Part shown: one piece after another, positions 299 through 22,006 of the stretch | How the letters are laid out: each line of letters starts with the position of its first letter | How positions within the stretch are numbered: the first letter of the stretch is position 1 | Virus record (IMG/VR): IMGVR_UViG_3300027985_001696 | Coordinates: 1-28,236 of that record | Reading direction: 5' to 3' (one strand) | DNA: 28,236 nt | Source: a virus | Notes under the pieces: model-generated | The model's database searches: none | The model's input: only the letters and a program-made list of their open reading frames with translations | What the model was told of the DNA's origin: nothing | Translations under genes and position numbers: made by a program

Positions 299-1759
299 CT
301 AAATCATATGCGAAATAAACAAAGACCATCCGATTGGATGGTCTTTGTTTGTTTGGTTGCGGGGGCTCGCACCAAGCGGTACACAAAACCAGATATCATA
401 ACCACCGCTGTCAAAAATAACTATTTTGTCAACCAGGGCGAGCACTGCTCGACGCTGCACCTCTTTTGAAGCCTTTCTAATATCGCCAAAGTGCTCGAGC
501 TGTGCGAGTATTTCAGCGCGAGAGAAAGTTGATGAACGTACATCCTGCAGCTGACTTTCTTCTTCGCGTAAAGCATTCAGTTTTTCTATAAGGCGCTCAT
601 GATATGCACCTCGGCTTATTGCATCCACGATGTTCTCAATTTCTTTGTGAACCTTTTGCAGACGCTTTTTGGCTTCGACTTCTGCACCCGAATTTTGTTG
701 TGAAAACAAGAGATCTGCAGCCGCGTCCAGATCGTAGAAAAACTCATCGTAGATAGTGGTTATTACTTCTGCCTCAATATATTCTTTGTTCACTCTTCGG
801 TTTCCGCAGCGCTTACTACACTCATAATAACCATAGAACTTTTTCGCACGTCCTCCGCGGACTGTTATACCGCTATAAGTAGCCCCACAACCACCGCACA
901 CAAGCTTTCCAGATAAAAGGTAGAAATGCTTTGCCCGGCCTGCGGCATTGCGCTTGTTTGCTCGCATGCGGCTTTGTACCAGCCTCCACGTTTCAGGGTC
1001 AATAATTGCCGGCATACCATCCTCGACACGGATGATATCTGCGTCTGCGTTGCGCTTCTTTCCGGCACCATAGGATCGTACGTTAAATGTGAAAGTACCA
1101 ACATATCTTTCGTTATTCAGTATGCTGTTTAGAGAATTTTTTCCGAAAGCACTACCACCTTTGGTCCGTTGCCCGCTGAGCTCTGTGAGAATGTCGGCAT
1201 AAGAATGTCCGGTGGCATATAATGAAAAAATCTGTTTTACGATTGCGGATTCACGGTCGTTGATGACATACTTCAGATCCACGATGTCGTAACCCAGTGG
1301 TGCGCGTCCGCCAGTGAATTTGCAGTTGTAGGCGTTTTCTTTTAACCCCTTCATAGTTTCAATGGCAAGATTTTCGGAATACATCTGATCTTTGCCTGCG
1401 ATTACAACTTCCATGAATCTACCAGTGGGATTGTCTTCGATTGGTTCACGTACGGAAATCACTCGAACATCGAATTTCCGCAGCTCAGCTTTATAAGTAA
1501 TGCTGTCTTTTGCATTCCTCGCGAATCTGCTGAACTCATGAACAATAACAGCATTAAAGTTGCGCAGGCGAGCGTCAACCATCATTTTCTGAAACTCATC
1601 GCGTTCATCAGTCTTGCCAGAAAGTGCTTCATCTGAGTATACCTTGACAATCTCATACCCATATCGATCAGCAAACGCGTTTATAGCACGTAACTGTGCG
1701 TCAATGCTTTCTTCTCTTTGGTTATCGGATGAATAACGCGCATAGGCGACTGCTTTCAA
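299..1759 (-). CDS. Large serine recombinase (phage integrase)
   Basis: Site-specific recombinase of the resolvase/invertase superfamily that would integrate and excise the prophage through a 5' phosphoserine intermediate. The N-terminal resolvase domain (about 1-145) has the motif YARYSSD with R8 and the likely catalytic S10, plus the SRFARN motif with R78 and R81. A recombinase domain follows (about 150-270). A zinc ribbon uses C288, C291, C314 and C318. A charged, probably coiled-coil segment spans about 358-405. At 486 residues it is within the usual range of large serine integrases. The start is TTG, preceded by GGAGGA about six bases upstream, and overlaps the stop of the upstream gene (TTGA). 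The last 15 or so residues, encoded by a terminator-like hairpin, do not look like conserved protein. Confidence 0.95.
   Translation of the reverse strand: MKAVAYARYSSDNQREESIDAQLRAINAFADRYGYEIVKVYSDEALSGKTDERDEFQKMMVDARLRNFNAVIVHEFSRFARNAKDSITYKAELRKFDVRVISVREPIEDNPTGRFMEVVIAGKDQMYSENLAIETMKGLKENAYNCKFTGGRAPLGYDIVDLKYVINDRESAIVKQIFSLYATGHSYADILTELSGQRTKGGSAFGKNSLNSILNNERYVGTFTFNVRSYGAGKKRNADADIIRVEDGMPAIIDPETWRLVQSRMRANKRNAAGRAKHFYLLSGKLVCGGCGATYSGITVRGGRAKKFYGYYECSKRCGNRRVNKEYIEAEVITTIYDEFFYDLDAAADLLFSQQNSGAEVEAKKRLQKVHKEIENIVDAISRGAYHERLIEKLNALREEESQLQDVRSSTFSRAEILAQLEHFGDIRKASKEVQRRAVLALVDKIVIFDSGGYDIWFCVPLGASPRNQTNKDHPIGWSLFISHMI
311..346 (-). terminator. Terminator-like hairpin inside the recombinase 3' end
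   Basis: AAAGACCATCC (321-331) and GGATGGTCTTT (336-346) form a perfect 11-bp stem with a 4-base loop. On the minus strand the stem ends in TCTTTGTTTATTT, the look of an intrinsic terminator. It sits inside the last codons of the recombinase frame, encoding about residues 472-481, which is unusual and suggests that the present stop codon is not the ancestral one. Confidence 0.65.
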
Positions 1760-1950
1760 GCTGATTCCTCCGATCTTTCTATTGTGATTTGCATAATCCC
1801 TAATGCAGCATTCAAGATTGAAAAATCAATACTATCGACCAATAAAACGCTGTGTGATCCATAATCAATGACAATTCGTTTTCCATCTGCAACTGACGCA
1901 ATAAAAGCTTCCGGATTTTCTTTAAACTCATTCAAACTAACGTGAATCAT
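1756..1950 (-). CDS. Phd/YefM-like small protein, orphan antitoxin fold
   Basis: A 64-residue protein with the layout of Phd/YefM DNA-binding antitoxins: a short N-terminal strand, the helix SLNEFKENPEAFIASV (residues 5-20), then GKRIVIDYGSHSVLLVDS, matching the family pattern of a glycine followed by an Ile/Val-rich strand, a turn and a second strand. The C-terminal toxin-neutralising tail is short and no toxin gene lies beside it. It is joined by a 4-base overlap to the recombinase downstream and by another to the gene upstream, with GAGGTG as ribosome site. I infer a DNA-binding or autoregulatory role in the integration operon, possibly a directionality or copy-control factor. The family assignment is by pattern only. 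Confidence 0.65.
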   Translation of the reverse strand: MIHVSLNEFKENPEAFIASVADGKRIVIDYGSHSVLLVDSIDFSILNAALGIMQITIERSEESA

Positions 1951-2210
1951 GTAGACACCTCACTAAACTCAGGAAACACATCAAAGGTTGATCCGTTAGG
2001 CAATGGAAGCGCATGAAATACTGCTGCTTTTACGAAACTAATACAATTTGGGCATGGATTCGCGCTTGAACTGCGATAACATCCTTCGGCTATTGGGGGG
2101 AAGACGGGCAGCCCATCATCCTCTGCAACTGTCACCAAAATTGTTGGTGTAAAATTTGCCTTTGCTTTTGGGCACTGAACCCGTGCTTTGATACGATAAT
2201 AAGAAATCAT
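1947..2210 (-). CDS. Small protein of unknown function, first gene of the integration operon
   Basis: Eighty-seven residues, not recognised. It has a Cys at about residue 13 and the cluster CPNC near residue 58, which may bind a metal. The N-terminus (MISYYRIKARV) and the strand-rich middle suggest a compact beta fold. The start at 2210 is chosen because GGGAGG lies about six bases upstream, and because an ATG further upstream at 2243 overlaps the -10 element of the promoter at 2242-2270 and so would not be in the transcript. It overlaps the Phd-like gene by ATGA, so the three genes to 299 appear translationally coupled. Confidence 0.7.
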   Translation of the reverse strand: MISYYRIKARVQCPKAKANFTPTILVTVAEDDGLPVFPPIAEGCYRSSSANPCPNCISFVKAAVFHALPLPNGSTFDVFPEFSEVST

Positions 2211-2241: not shown

Positions 2242-2270
2242 ATTATCGCACGCTATTTCGATTTTGTAAA
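2242..2270 (-). promoter_or_regulatory. SigA-type promoter of the integration operon
   Basis: On the minus strand TTTACA (2265-2270) is followed after exactly 17 bases by GATAAT (2242-2247). Transcription would start near 2235, leaving about 25 bases before the chosen start at 2210. Its spacer is nearly identical to that of the repressor promoter at 3407-3435. Confidence 0.7.
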
Positions 2271-2289: not shown

Positions 2290-2318
2290 TTGATTACACG
2301 CTTTAGTACTGATATTAT
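2290..2318 (+). promoter_or_regulatory. Promoter of a putative small RNA
   Basis: TTGATT (2290-2295), a 17-base spacer and TATTAT (2313-2318) form a good SigA-type promoter on the plus strand. It lies in a gap between two minus-strand genes and points at a hairpin and terminator with no open frame, so it most likely makes a non-coding RNA. Confidence 0.6.
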
Positions 2319-2320
2319 AA

Positions 2321-2405
2321 GGGTGCAGAAAAGAGACCCTGCCTAGGGCGTTTTACTATCTGCACTCACCGCTTTAGTGGTACGAACACTGAAGCGGTTT
2401 TTTAT
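2321..2405 (+). ncRNA. Putative small structured RNA, about 80 nt
   Basis: Directly downstream of the promoter at 2290-2318 the RNA would fold into two elements. The first is a closing stem GTGCAGA (2323-2329) with TCTGCAC (2359-2365), enclosing the small hairpin CCCT-GCCT-AGGG (2337-2348). The second is a strong terminator hairpin, ACCGCTTTAGTG (2368-2379) with CACTGAAGCGGT (2387-2398), followed by TTTTTTATCTTTT. There is no ribosome site or open frame. It is transcribed against the flanking minus-strand genes but overlaps neither. A regulatory RNA of the lysogeny region is the simplest reading. I do not recognise a named RNA family. Confidence 0.55.
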
Positions 2406-2410
2406 CTTTT
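2368..2410 (+). terminator. Intrinsic terminator of the small RNA
   Basis: A 12-bp stem (2368-2379 with 2387-2398, one G-U pair, 7-base loop) is followed by a T-rich tract on the plus strand. No plus-strand coding gene precedes it, which is the main argument for a small RNA here. Confidence 0.75.
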
Positions 2411-2426
2411 GGAATAGAGATAATTC

Positions 2427-2756
2427 TTATAATTTTATCAGATTAAAATAAGCAATTGCTTGACCATTAAACTGAGGGAATTCGCCTCCATTTACATTAA
2501 GAGCTACAGCAAGAATACCAAGTAAAATGGCGATAATCACAGAATAGAATCTTAGGTAGTGAACAACAGCTTCGGCAATTGCCCATACAATTAATATACA
2601 AGTTCCAATTAACATTAATACCCAAACGCCACCACCATCCCCCGCAAATGCTGCGGTGAAAAAAGCTGCGAGAATCGCAAATAAACCCATTGTGTTTAAG
2701 CCGCGTCTTGGTTTTTCACTCTCTTTATATACTGAGTTAGCATCAAGTTTGTTCAT
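2427..2756 (-). CDS. Small three-helix membrane protein cotranscribed with the repressor
   Basis: A 109-residue protein with a polar N-terminus (1-20) and three predicted membrane segments at about 22-38, 43-64 and 70-87, with a Gly-rich turn (AGDGGGVW) between the first two. It has a clear ribosome site (GGGAGA five bases before the ATG) and starts 11 bases after the repressor stop, so it should be made in the lysogen. Small membrane proteins in this position are often superinfection-exclusion or immunity factors; that role is inferred from position only. No family is recognised. Confidence 0.8.
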   Translation of the reverse strand: MNKLDANSVYKESEKPRRGLNTMGLFAILAAFFTAAFAGDGGGVWVLMLIGTCILIVWAIAEAVVHYLRFYSVIIAILLGILAVALNVNGGEFPQFNGQAIAYFNLIKL

Positions 2757-2767
2757 AGGTCTCCCAT

Positions 2768-3385
2768 CTATTTGATTAGACTAAAAAATCCAACTGCTTT
2801 ACCTAGAATTCGAGCCGAATGGGCGCCATTGATCTGTATTGGGGCATAAGCCGGATTTTCTGCTTGTAAAATCATACCGTGAGCAAGCTTATAAACCCGC
2901 TTTAGTGTCACTTCTTCTTCATCAATAATGACGGCTGCAATCTCGCTATTCTCAACATCATCTTGTTGTCGAATATAAACAACGTCACCATCAAAAATAC
3001 GCGCACCTGTCATGCTGTCACCTTTACAGCGTAAAGCAAAATCACAATGGATACCATCAGGAACATCAACATATCCATCAAGATTTTCAACAGCAAGTAT
3101 TGGATCGCCGCAAGCTATGTTTCCTAACAAAGGTTTTTTCGTTGTTAACGGAAGAGTCATGATGCCGGGAAGACTTAAAATATCGCTAGTATCATTTGAA
3201 AAGAAATACTTTGGAGATACGCTTAATGCTCCGCATAGATTTTCGACCATATCCATATCGGGTTTATTGATGTCATTCTCCCAGTTGCTGATTGCTGTAT
3301 TAGTTGCGTCAATTAAATCGGCTAACTCTTTTTGGGTATAGCCTTTTTTCTTACGCGCCTCTTTAAGTTTATTACCGAAAGTCAT
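2768..3385 (-). CDS. CI/LexA-like repressor with HTH and S24 self-cleavage domain
   Basis: A 205-residue lysogeny repressor. Residues 3-58 form an HTH_3 DNA-binding domain (KLKEARKKKGYTQKELADLI). Residues 85-205 form an S24/LexA-type peptidase domain with the cleavage site C92-G93 (ACGDPI, the Cys-Gly form known in UmuD), catalytic S124 in GDSM and lysine K162 in VTLKR. RecA-stimulated self-cleavage would induce the phage. The start is placed at 3385, with GGGGTG about six bases upstream. An ATG at 3415 lies upstream of the -10 element and cannot be in the mRNA. It faces the Cro-like gene across six or more TTYCAG half-sites that it probably binds. Confidence 0.95.
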   Translation of the reverse strand: MTFGNKLKEARKKKGYTQKELADLIDATNTAISNWENDINKPDMDMVENLCGALSVSPKYFFSNDTSDILSLPGIMTLPLTTKKPLLGNIACGDPILAVENLDGYVDVPDGIHCDFALRCKGDSMTGARIFDGDVVYIRQQDDVENSEIAAVIIDEEEVTLKRVYKLAHGMILQAENPAYAPIQINGAHSARILGKAVGFFSLIK

Positions 3386-3406: not shown

Positions 3407-3435
3407 ATCATACACCGCAATTTCGATATTGTAAA
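3407..3435 (-). promoter_or_regulatory. Promoter of the repressor (maintenance promoter)
   Basis: On the minus strand TTTACA (3430-3435), a 17-base spacer and TATGAT (3407-3412). A CTGGAA half-site (3402-3407) touches the -10 and the operator at 3444-3460 lies just upstream of the -35, so both activation and autorepression are possible. Confidence 0.75.
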
Positions 3436-3443
3436 TAATTATT

Positions 3444-3530
3444 TTCCAGATTAGCTGAAATTATTCTGGAATTCTAGTTGACATTACAGCGAAGCTGGAA
3501 TAATATGAATATATTCCAGAATTACTGAAA
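3444..3530. promoter_or_regulatory. Repressor operators in the divergent switch
   Basis: Two 17-base dyads share the form TTCCAG-N5-CTGAAA at 3444-3460 and 3514-3530. A third, wider dyad pairs CTGGAA (3495-3500) with TTCCAG (3514-3519), and a further CTGGAA lies at 3466-3471. One more half-site is at 3402-3407. The half-sites flank or overlap both divergent promoters, as expected for repressor and Cro binding. Confidence 0.75.
3478..3506 (+). promoter_or_regulatory. Early rightward promoter
   Basis: TTGACA (3478-3483), exactly 17 bases, then TATAAT-like TAATAT (3501-3506): a consensus -35 at ideal spacing. The half-site CTGGAA at 3495-3500 sits in the spacer directly before the -10, and the dyad at 3514-3530 covers the start region, so bound repressor would block it. 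Confidence 0.85.
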
Positions 3531-3546
3531 TAAAGGGGGATGCCAA

Positions 3547-3768
3547 ATGTGTGTAGGACTTCGAATTCTTGAGTACATCCAAAGTAGCGGTATTTCACAA
3601 GCACATGTAAGTAAAAGAGCGGGGATTTCACTTCCCAAACTCAACTTAGCTCTACACGGGCGAAGAAAACTGCAAATGGATGAATATGAGGCCATATGCT
3701 ATGCCCTTGATGTAAACCCAGATAAATTTCTCGTCCCACGACCGATAAGCGGCGAGAAGAGCGCGTAA
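3547..3768 (+). CDS. Cro-like HTH regulator
   Basis: A 73-residue protein that is almost entirely one HTH_3 domain: RILEYIQSSGISQAHVSKRA, then GISLPKLNLALHGRRKL as the recognition region. It is the first gene after the early promoter and has a strong ribosome site (AGGGGG about eight bases upstream), the position of Cro in lambdoid and Firmicutes phages. It probably competes with the repressor for the TTYCAG sites. An alternative role as a regulator of the early operon only cannot be excluded. Confidence 0.88.
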   Translation: MCVGLRILEYIQSSGISQAHVSKRAGISLPKLNLALHGRRKLQMDEYEAICYALDVNPDKFLVPRPISGEKSA

Positions 3769-10018: not shown

Positions 10019-12231
10019 TGGTTGAACAATATGACGTCCGAGATGTGCTCAAACATATTGATCCCGCTGTGCTGGATTATAACGAGTGGCTGTATGTCGG
10101 TATGGCTTTGAAAGAAGCCGGATATTCCGTTCAGGACTGGGACGCATGGAGCAGCAGAGACACCCGCCGCTATCACTCCGGTGAGTGCGTGAAGAAGTGG
10201 GGGGGGTTCAATGGCGCGACACAACCGATTACTGCCGGCACGATTATTCAGCTTGCGCGTGACCAGGGATGGCAACCGCCGGAATGGCAAGGCGGCCGCG
10301 AACTCGACTGGAATGAAGCGATCGGCGCAAAGGATGATCTGGTTGTTGTCAACGCGAACTGGATTGAAAACCGTGAAGTACATGAACCGGAAAAATGGGA
10401 TCCCGTGAAAGATCTCATTACCTATCTTGAGATCATCTTTGAAGCATCTGACAAGGTTGGTTACGTTACTCGTTCATATGAACATGATGGTCGTTACCTT
10501 CCGGACAAAGGCTGCTACGACCGTACTGCCGGACAATTGATTGATCTGCTTAAGAAATGCAAAGGCGACATTGGAAGCATTCTGGGCGACTACAATCCCA
10601 GCGTTGGTGCGTGGATCCGGTTTAACCCGCTCGATGGAAAAGGGGTAAAGAACGACAATGTGACCGACTTTCGGTTCGCCCTGGTCGAATCCGACGAGAC
10701 GGATATCGACCGCCAGAATGCTATCATCCGCGAGTTGGAGCTCCCTGTTGCCTGCTTGGTGCACAGCGGGAAAAAGAGTCTGCACGCCATCGTACGTGTC
10801 GAGGCGGCTTCCTATGAAGAGTACCGCAAACGCGTCGACTATCTTTACACCGTATGCCAAAAGAACGGTCTTCGCATAGACAGTCAAAATCGCAATCCTT
10901 CGCGGCTTTCACGATTGCCCGGCGTAATGCGATCCGGCAAGAAACAATTCCTCGTTGATACAAACATCGGGAAACGCTCATGGACTGAGTGGTTCGAATG
11001 GATTGAGAGCGTCAATGATGATCTGCCGGAGCCGGAGAGTATTGCGACGGTTTGGGAGAGCCTGCCAGAGCTGGCGCCGCCGCTCATCGATGGAGTTTTA
11101 CGGCAGGGTCACAAGATGCTTTTAGCGGGTCCTAGTAAAGCTGGCAAGAGCTTCGCACTGATTGAGTTATGCTGCGCGATCGCAGAAGGTCGGCAATGGA
11201 TGTCATGGCAGTGCGCCAAAGGCCGCGTTATGTATGTCAATCTCGAGCTGGACAGGGCATCGTGCCTTCATCGATTCAAAGATGTTTATAACGCGCTCGG
11301 TTGGGATCCGCAGAGCATCGGGAATATTGACGTATGGAATTTGCGCGGAAAATCAATTCCAATGGACAAGCTTGCGCCGAAGTTGATTCGCCGGGCAGCG
11401 AAAAAACACTATATCGCAATCGTGATCGATCCGATATACAAGGTGATTACAGGTGACGAAAACAGTGCTGATCAAATGGCAAAATTCTGCAACCAGTTTG
11501 ACCTGGTATGCGCAGAATTAGGCGCCGCGGTGATCTATTGCCATCATCACAGTAAGGGCACACAAGGGCAAAAACGCTCTATGGACCGTGCATCTGGAAG
11601 CGGTGTCTTCGCTCGAGATCCGGACGCACTGCTCGACTACATAGAGCTGGAAACGACAGAGGCACTACTTGCTCAGGAAGAAAACAAAGCTGTCGCCGCG
11701 GCATGCTGTCAGTTCCTTGAAACTGCTGTTCAGAATTGGGATGAACATGTCTCACAGGATGATATGTGTAGCGCACCGTGCATGCTTAAACAAAGCGAAA
11801 AACTTCTGTCGCAGGCTGCATTCAGTGTACTTCGCGAAAAGGTGTTGCAAACCCGCGCTGAGGTTAAGAAAAGAAGTGCATGGCGAATCGATGGGACGCT
11901 TCGTGAATTCCCGAAGTTCAATCCAGTGAACATCTGGTTTACATATCCTGTGCATACAGTTGATACCGTGGGAAGTCTCAGAGACGTTCATGCGGACGGG
12001 GCAACAGTCGGTTACTCATACCTGAAACCGAAGAAGTCAGCCGCCGAAAGAACCGTGGAGAAACTCAAACAGCTTGACAATGCTTATCAAGCAATATCTG
12101 CATTGAATGGCGACGTCACGATAACGGACCTTGTTTCATACATGGGACTTTCGAAAAATACTGTGCGTGACCGGGTCGATCAAAGTGAAAAATATACGCG
12201 CGATGGTGGCAACGTTTATTACAAAATGTAG
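10018..12231 (+). CDS. Primase-helicase: PriCT, AEP primase and RepA-type ATPase
   Basis: A 737-residue replication protein. Residues 1-80 form a PriCT-like domain (DYNEWLYVGMALKEAGYS). Residues 90-330 form an archaeo-eukaryotic-type primase: metal ligands in VESDETD (E224, D226), then HSGKKSLHAIVRV, and D288 in DSQNRNPSRLSRLPGV. Residues 340-560 form an AAA_25/RepA-like helicase with Walker A GPSKAGKS (371-378), Walker B IVIDPIY (D471) and CHHHSKG. A winged-helix-like C-terminus (ITDLVSYMGLSKNTVRDRV) is suited to bind origin DNA. The gene's stop codon touches the first of the GGGGTCAAAA repeats, which supports origin recognition. Confidence 0.93.
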   Translation: MVEQYDVRDVLKHIDPAVLDYNEWLYVGMALKEAGYSVQDWDAWSSRDTRRYHSGECVKKWGGFNGATQPITAGTIIQLARDQGWQPPEWQGGRELDWNEAIGAKDDLVVVNANWIENREVHEPEKWDPVKDLITYLEIIFEASDKVGYVTRSYEHDGRYLPDKGCYDRTAGQLIDLLKKCKGDIGSILGDYNPSVGAWIRFNPLDGKGVKNDNVTDFRFALVESDETDIDRQNAIIRELELPVACLVHSGKKSLHAIVRVEAASYEEYRKRVDYLYTVCQKNGLRIDSQNRNPSRLSRLPGVMRSGKKQFLVDTNIGKRSWTEWFEWIESVNDDLPEPESIATVWESLPELAPPLIDGVLRQGHKMLLAGPSKAGKSFALIELCCAIAEGRQWMSWQCAKGRVMYVNLELDRASCLHRFKDVYNALGWDPQSIGNIDVWNLRGKSIPMDKLAPKLIRRAAKKHYIAIVIDPIYKVITGDENSADQMAKFCNQFDLVCAELGAAVIYCHHHSKGTQGQKRSMDRASGSGVFARDPDALLDYIELETTEALLAQEENKAVAAACCQFLETAVQNWDEHVSQDDMCSAPCMLKQSEKLLSQAAFSVLREKVLQTRAEVKKRSAWRIDGTLREFPKFNPVNIWFTYPVHTVDTVGSLRDVHADGATVGYSYLKPKKSAAERTVEKLKQLDNAYQAISALNGDVTITDLVSYMGLSKNTVRDRVDQSEKYTRDGGNVYYKM

Positions 12232-12452
12232 GGGTCAAAAAGTTCAAAAAGAAAATTGACCCCTGACCCCTAGGGGTCAAAAAACTCAAAAACACGGCTT
12301 TTGGACTTTTGACCCCTGTTCAAGTTTAGGGGTCAAAACGCAAAAAATACGGTTTTTGACCCCTAAATAAATGGCCTGTGGAGGGGTCAAAAACAGGGGT
12401 CAAAAAGTAGATATATATATATCTACTTTTTGACCGCCCCTGATTTGACCGC
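12231..12452. repeat. Origin-like array of GGGGTCAAAA repeats, both orientations
   Basis: No gene is present here. GGGGTCAAAA occurs at 12231-12240, 12273-12282, 12329-12338, 12383-12392 and 12396-12405. The inverse TTTTGACCCC occurs at 12307-12316 and 12354-12363. Shorter inverse copies (TTGACCCC, TGACCCC) are at 12256-12270, and variants TTTTTGACCGCCCC and TTTGACCGCC follow at about 12426-12452. Forward and inverse copies pair into four successive inverted repeats. Placed directly after the primase-helicase and next to an AT-rich palindrome, this fits a replication origin with iterons; a structured RNA or transcription-control array is the alternative. Confidence 0.75.
12398..12435. repeat. 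Perfect 38-bp palindrome with AT core
   Basis: Bases 12398-12416 are the exact reverse complement of 12417-12435, with no central loop. The ends are GGTCAAAAAG and CTTTTTGACC, so the palindrome is built from two facing copies of the array repeat, and its centre is pure alternating A/T (12410-12421). Such sequences can extrude as cruciforms and melt easily, suggesting the unwinding element or initiation site of the origin. Confidence 0.85.
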
Positions 12453-21872: not shown

Positions 21873-21904
21873 AAGGACGTTCTGAAACGGGCGTCCTTTT
21901 GTTA
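21873..21904 (+). terminator. Intrinsic terminator after the small acidic gene
   Basis: AAGGACG (21873-21879) and CGTCCTT (21892-21898) form a 7-bp stem followed by TTTTGTTATA. It lies between the portal/minor-head part and the scaffold/capsid part, suggesting separate tuning of capsid expression. Confidence 0.7.
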
Positions 21905-22006
21905 TACCCAAATTGCCAACCATGTCGGCGTTTAAATGCATGGACTGCCCCAGGCGCGGAGTGGCCGCGCGTTTATAAGTTAAATCGCGGGTGGGTAAGG
22001 AACAAT
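21905..22006 (+). other. Short intergenic stretch before the scaffold gene
   Basis: About 100 bases without a gene. A small stem GCGCGG (21954-21959) with CCGCGC (21965-21970) is present, followed by GTTTATAAGTT. No clear promoter is seen, although one would be expected after the terminator at 21873-21904. A frame upstream in phase with the scaffold has no ribosome site. Confidence 0.35.

Follow-up and report, generated by a model that had tools for sequence, protein, structure and literature searches.

A putative RNA gene of about 80 nucleotides between the integrase and repressor operons of a temperate phage

The lysogeny region and its gap

In a virus record of 28,236 bases (IMG/VR IMGVR_UViG_3300027985_001696), analysed here at its full length and referred to as the window, a gap of 183 bases (2244-2426) separates two minus-strand operons, one on the integrase side and one on the repressor side. 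The plus strand of this gap carries signals of transcription, and the question that they raise is whether they make up a small RNA gene and, if so, what such an RNA would do to the operons that face it. A first-pass annotation had proposed an unassigned RNA gene between two minus-strand operons, and both operons do lie on the minus strand, between integrase and repressor. The features that the argument needs are as follows.

299-1759, minus strand: large serine integrase (Pfam Resolvase, Recombinase and Zn_ribbon_recom)
1947-2210, minus strand: 87-aa protein, first gene of the integrase operon, with GGGAGG ahead of the ATG at 2210
2242-2270, minus strand: predicted promoter of the integrase operon, TTTACA-17-GATAAT, TG extended
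2290-2318, plus strand: predicted promoter of sigma-A/sigma-70 type, TTGATT-17-TATTAT, with a TG extended -10 and a 9/12 consensus match
2321-2367, plus strand: 5′ hairpin with an outer stem (2321-2329 paired to 2359-2367) and, around CCCTGCCTAGGG, a weaker inner one
2325-2404, plus strand: putative small RNA of about 80 nt, placed from promoter and terminator (start 2323-2325, end at the T run)
2336-2349, minus strand: weak terminator-like site of 5 pairs, at chance frequency, a possible end of the repressor-operon transcript
2368-2404, plus strand: intrinsic terminator, 12-bp stem, loop GTACGAA, T run
2427-2756, minus strand: 109-aa protein, hydrophobic and probably membrane-bound, encoded at the 3′ end of the repressor operon
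2768-3385, minus strand: S24 peptidase-type repressor, CI/LexA-like (Pfam HTH_3 and Peptidase_S24; PHROG 4, transcriptional repressor)
3547-3768, plus strand: Cro-like protein

The source of the window is a temperate phage, probably of Clostridia-type bacteria. Identity of its terminase and replication proteins to their counterparts in IMG/VR records, and in prophages of Clostridia-type genomes, is about 48-74%; the window also encodes replication genes and a head/tail module. The 87-aa protein was assigned no family by Pfam or PHROG search, and the 109-aa protein has a weak Pfam match to ThrE, under the cut-off. A 64-aa protein (1756-1950, minus strand) that overlaps the integrase start shows a weak match, also under the cut-off, to the N-terminal part of Phd/YefM antitoxins; no toxin gene was seen adjoining it. 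Farther away, a GP20-a RNA (Rfam RF02991, 67 bits) lies on the plus strand at 21911-22006, ahead of a head gene; a 10-bp terminator (21873-21898) comes immediately before this RNA. Directly 3′ of the primase/helicase gene, at 12231-12437, seven exact copies and one near copy of GGGGTCAAAA occur in both orientations and are iteron-like. In two relatives, L016 and L120, the corresponding place holds other repeats, based on TTTCCCTA / GGAAAGGGAAAA, and lacks GGGGTCAA; the region is a possible origin whose repeat differs between relatives.

Within the lysogeny region, TTTACAAWATCGAAATWGCG occurs exactly twice on the minus strand (2251-2270 and 3416-3435; 0.05 expected), and the two copies form the -35 and spacer of the integrase-operon promoter and of the repressor promoter; a common regulator of the two operons is possible. 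A TTCCAGA...CTGAAAT motif, present in two copies (3444-3461 and 3514-3531) between the repressor and Cro-like genes, is likely to represent repressor operators.

Signals for a possible plus-strand transcript

The terminator, not the promoter, bears most of the evidential weight. Its stem (2368-2398) has 12 bp around a 7-base loop and is followed by TTTTTTA, and the strong terminator announced from 2368 on was borne out, going beyond chance: in 3000 shuffles that preserved the gap's dinucleotides, a 12-bp terminator arose once, and a unit defined as a promoter with a terminator of at least 10 bp no more than 140 bases downstream never arose. Across the whole window there are two such units, against a mean of 0.3 in whole-window shuffles, and only the one at 2290-2404 has a 12-bp stem. 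The fold of the whole unit (2322-2406) has an energy of -37.0 kcal/mol (z -6.3). The idea that the 12-bp hairpin might terminate the minus-strand operon was rejected, there being no T run on that side; because the T run is found on the plus strand only, plus-strand transcription of some kind ends there.

The plus-strand promoter TTGATT-17-TATTAT is also where the first-pass annotation put it, at 2290-2318, with a TG before the -10. Promoter-like sites of this kind number 9 in 6 kb against 11.0 expected from shuffles, which is chance level for the promoter alone. As for the 5′ hairpin, the stem of GTGCAGA (2323-2329) with TCTGCAC (2359-2365) was confirmed and can be lengthened to 9 pairs (2321-2329 with 2359-2367). 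The hairpin of 49 bases has a z of -3.5 and none of 200 shuffles is equally stable, while about 1% of this phage's 49-base windows fold equally well. From a start at 2325, 7 bases past the -10, four outer pairs are lost and five are left, z falls to -2.2 and 7 of 200 shuffles are as stable; the 5′ hairpin is therefore only moderate if the RNA begins at this, the usual base.

The gap was said to hold no open frame, and indeed no reading frame with a ribosome site occurs within it; two 24-codon GTG frames (2232-2306 and 2377-2451) are incidental. A 7-codon frame, GTG CAG ... TAG, is present at 2323, and the unit could be read as a tiny coding element, or as a site bound at the DNA level. That frame has no ribosome site and would be almost leaderless, and the fold and T run suit an RNA terminator, which makes either version highly improbable. 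The gap thus has what is looked for in a small RNA gene, with a promoter of its own (by consensus only), an intrinsic terminator and no coding frame. A gene for an RNA of some 80 nt is plausible and explains most simply why a strong terminator stands on the plus strand without any other plus-strand gene before it, and an RNA is probably made from the unit at 2290-2404. Promoter, terminator and intergenic place were rightly called. For the test first proposed, conservation of the stems in related phages, no relative of the RNA was found.

The main rival needs no RNA gene to explain the terminator, the strongest signal of the gap: a bare plus-strand terminator would shield the repressor operon from antisense stray or read-through transcription, and the promoter-like site and the hairpin would be incidental to it. 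The chance frequency of promoter-like sites and the merely moderate hairpin agree with such an insulator, as does a plus-strand terminator at a similar place in a distant relative (below). Against it, transcription from the left could already be stopped by a strong inverted repeat (313-354) where the integrase gene ends, there is no plus-strand gene upstream, and the promoter has its TG extended -10 and lies at the right distance. We regard the bare terminator as only slightly less probable than the antisense reading given below.

Proposed pairing with the repressor-operon trailer

If the RNA is made, it may have a regulatory role, on integrase, repressor or host genes. Our main reading, to which we give a probability of roughly one in three, about half the chance that an RNA is made at all, is that the unit encodes a non-coding RNA of about 80 nt on the plus strand that would be antisense to the repressor-operon trailer, in an OOP-like layout. 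The minus-strand site at 2349-2336 lies inside the putative RNA gene, in antisense. From the repressor operon to the integrase, the search for minus-strand terminators yielded none of more than 5 bp, and none with a stem of at least 7 bp in a 900-base stretch upstream of the integrase. Since the 5-bp site is the only one found in the gap, transcription of the repressor operon probably continues through most or all of the putative RNA gene. In the proposed mechanism, this transcript would extend beyond 2427 into the gap, and the small RNA would be a perfect complement of its trailer. Pairing of RNA and trailer followed by double-strand cleavage, or else collision of the polymerases, would then lower the amount of repressor-operon RNA, and the same unit would act as a barrier that keeps read-through from the integrase operon. 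Lambda OOP RNA acts on cII by such a mechanism; in this phage the target would instead be the untranslated trailer.

The absence of the unit from the shuffled gaps, its 12-bp stem being unique in the window, the stability of the whole-unit fold, the restriction of the T run to the plus strand, the likely overlap of the two transcripts and a like layout in L112 (below) all argue for the antisense reading. Against it, L112 has no sequence likeness and other integrase relatives lack a strong terminator there, the RNA stops about 23 bases before the nearest coding end (~2404 vs 2427), the promoter is at chance level, the hairpin is weak from 2325, and no homologue was found in the collections searched.

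A different function would be pairing with other phage or host mRNAs, or binding of a protein, as with several prophage small RNAs. Promoter, hairpin, terminator and intergenic place are the anatomy of trans-acting small RNAs, and phage small RNAs that act on the host are described in a review (PMC12197685). But base pairing with translation starts of this phage's own genes gave no support, as predicted pairing was no better than for shuffled RNA: over 33 phage translation starts the best value was -45.1 kcal/mol, and the median for shuffled RNA was -46.7 kcal/mol. A trans-acting RNA is rather unlikely.

Relatives and known phage RNAs

Searches for relatives of the RNA itself were empty. Rfam gave no family at gathering or permissive thresholds (the best, a rimP leader, had 18 bits vs 47 needed and is put down to chance), blastn of phage and plasmid records returned nothing but chance pieces, and a pattern scan of IMG/VR with the loop region had zero matches. 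The corresponding stem-pair scan of IMG/VR gave two matches, neither of which then has a terminator hairpin; both resemble coding sequence. No homologue turned up in 11 related viral records, in 40 genomes with related terminases, or in overlapping class (391 genomes), order (395) and family (351 and 397) samples of Clostridia-type genomes. A single-sequence covariance model, R1, found no match in the related loci or in the 391 and 395 genomes. The blastn matches in the 351-genome family sample (E 3e-4 to 7e-4) were rejected, none continuing into the RNA; two of them fall within genes, one for an ABC transporter and the other for a transcription regulator.

The proteins around the gap fare little better. 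Repressor relatives are at 31-41% identity in three records. The integrase, 98-aa and 109-aa proteins have no relatives in IMG/VR, the integrase none in the genome contigs scanned, and the 87-aa protein, like the integrase and the 109-aa protein, no close relative in the scanned collections. Because these three proteins are also without close relatives there, the empty RNA searches say little. Terminase and primase relatives exist, but with other lysogeny modules where these are readable. The whole lysogeny module is an orphan in the scanned collections, and missing RNA homologues do not disprove conservation.

One distant integrase relative (L112, 36% identity) has TGATATTATA and a 10-bp terminator at 2840-2912 on its plus strand. 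This unit is placed between a serine integrase and a minus-strand operon of ImmA-like and repressor genes, a layout that matches the window's, and it has no sequence likeness to the window RNA. Just ~45 bases lie before its terminator, and the layout fits either an RNA gene or a bare terminator. In the other six integrase relatives of the same search and in L126 a strong terminator is absent at that place, with one 8-bp site in L117. It is quite improbable that the window and L112 represent a new family of phage small RNAs. Such RNAs would pair with the transcript joining the repressor operon to the serine-integrase operon and so set the balance of the two, and their layout would recur in serine-integrase phages without sequence conservation.

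The nearest known system is lambda OOP RNA, which is transcribed convergently with cII and covers 52 bases of the cII coding sequence (PMC5869508; PMC12197685). The window RNA would resemble it as a short RNA with its own promoter and an intrinsic terminator, set in the immunity region against a lysogeny-control gene (PMC5869508, PMC12197685). It is likewise convergent with a lysogeny-control operon, their overlap depending on where the minus-strand transcript ends. In contrast to OOP, it would overlap only the repressor-operon trailer and no coding end, and no sequence relation was found between the two; by analogy it may work like OOP, though it is not classed as OOP. The sar RNA of P22 and the c4 RNA of P1/P7 are phage antisense RNAs of immunity control (PMC12197685), but both target an antirepressor mRNA, and no antirepressor gene was seen beside the window RNA. 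RCd22/AbiF RNA is a non-coding RNA of a Clostridioides difficile prophage (PMC12373285), and so shares with the window RNA a prophage setting and, probably, a Clostridia-type host. It differs in adjoining an Abi_2/AbiF gene and in having abiF motifs, whereas Pfam and PADLOC show no Abi gene in the window and the candidate has no Rfam match; as an AbiF or type III antitoxin RNA the candidate lacks both the adjacent Abi_2 gene and a matching RNA family.

The RNA is a possible addition to the known phage small RNAs, ordinary in kind. If it exists, it would be a lysogeny control element in a group of phages from largely uncultured Clostridia, and would offer an uncomplicated case in which to study antisense regulation between a repressor and a serine-integrase operon; if not, the locus would be a terminator guarding the repressor operon.
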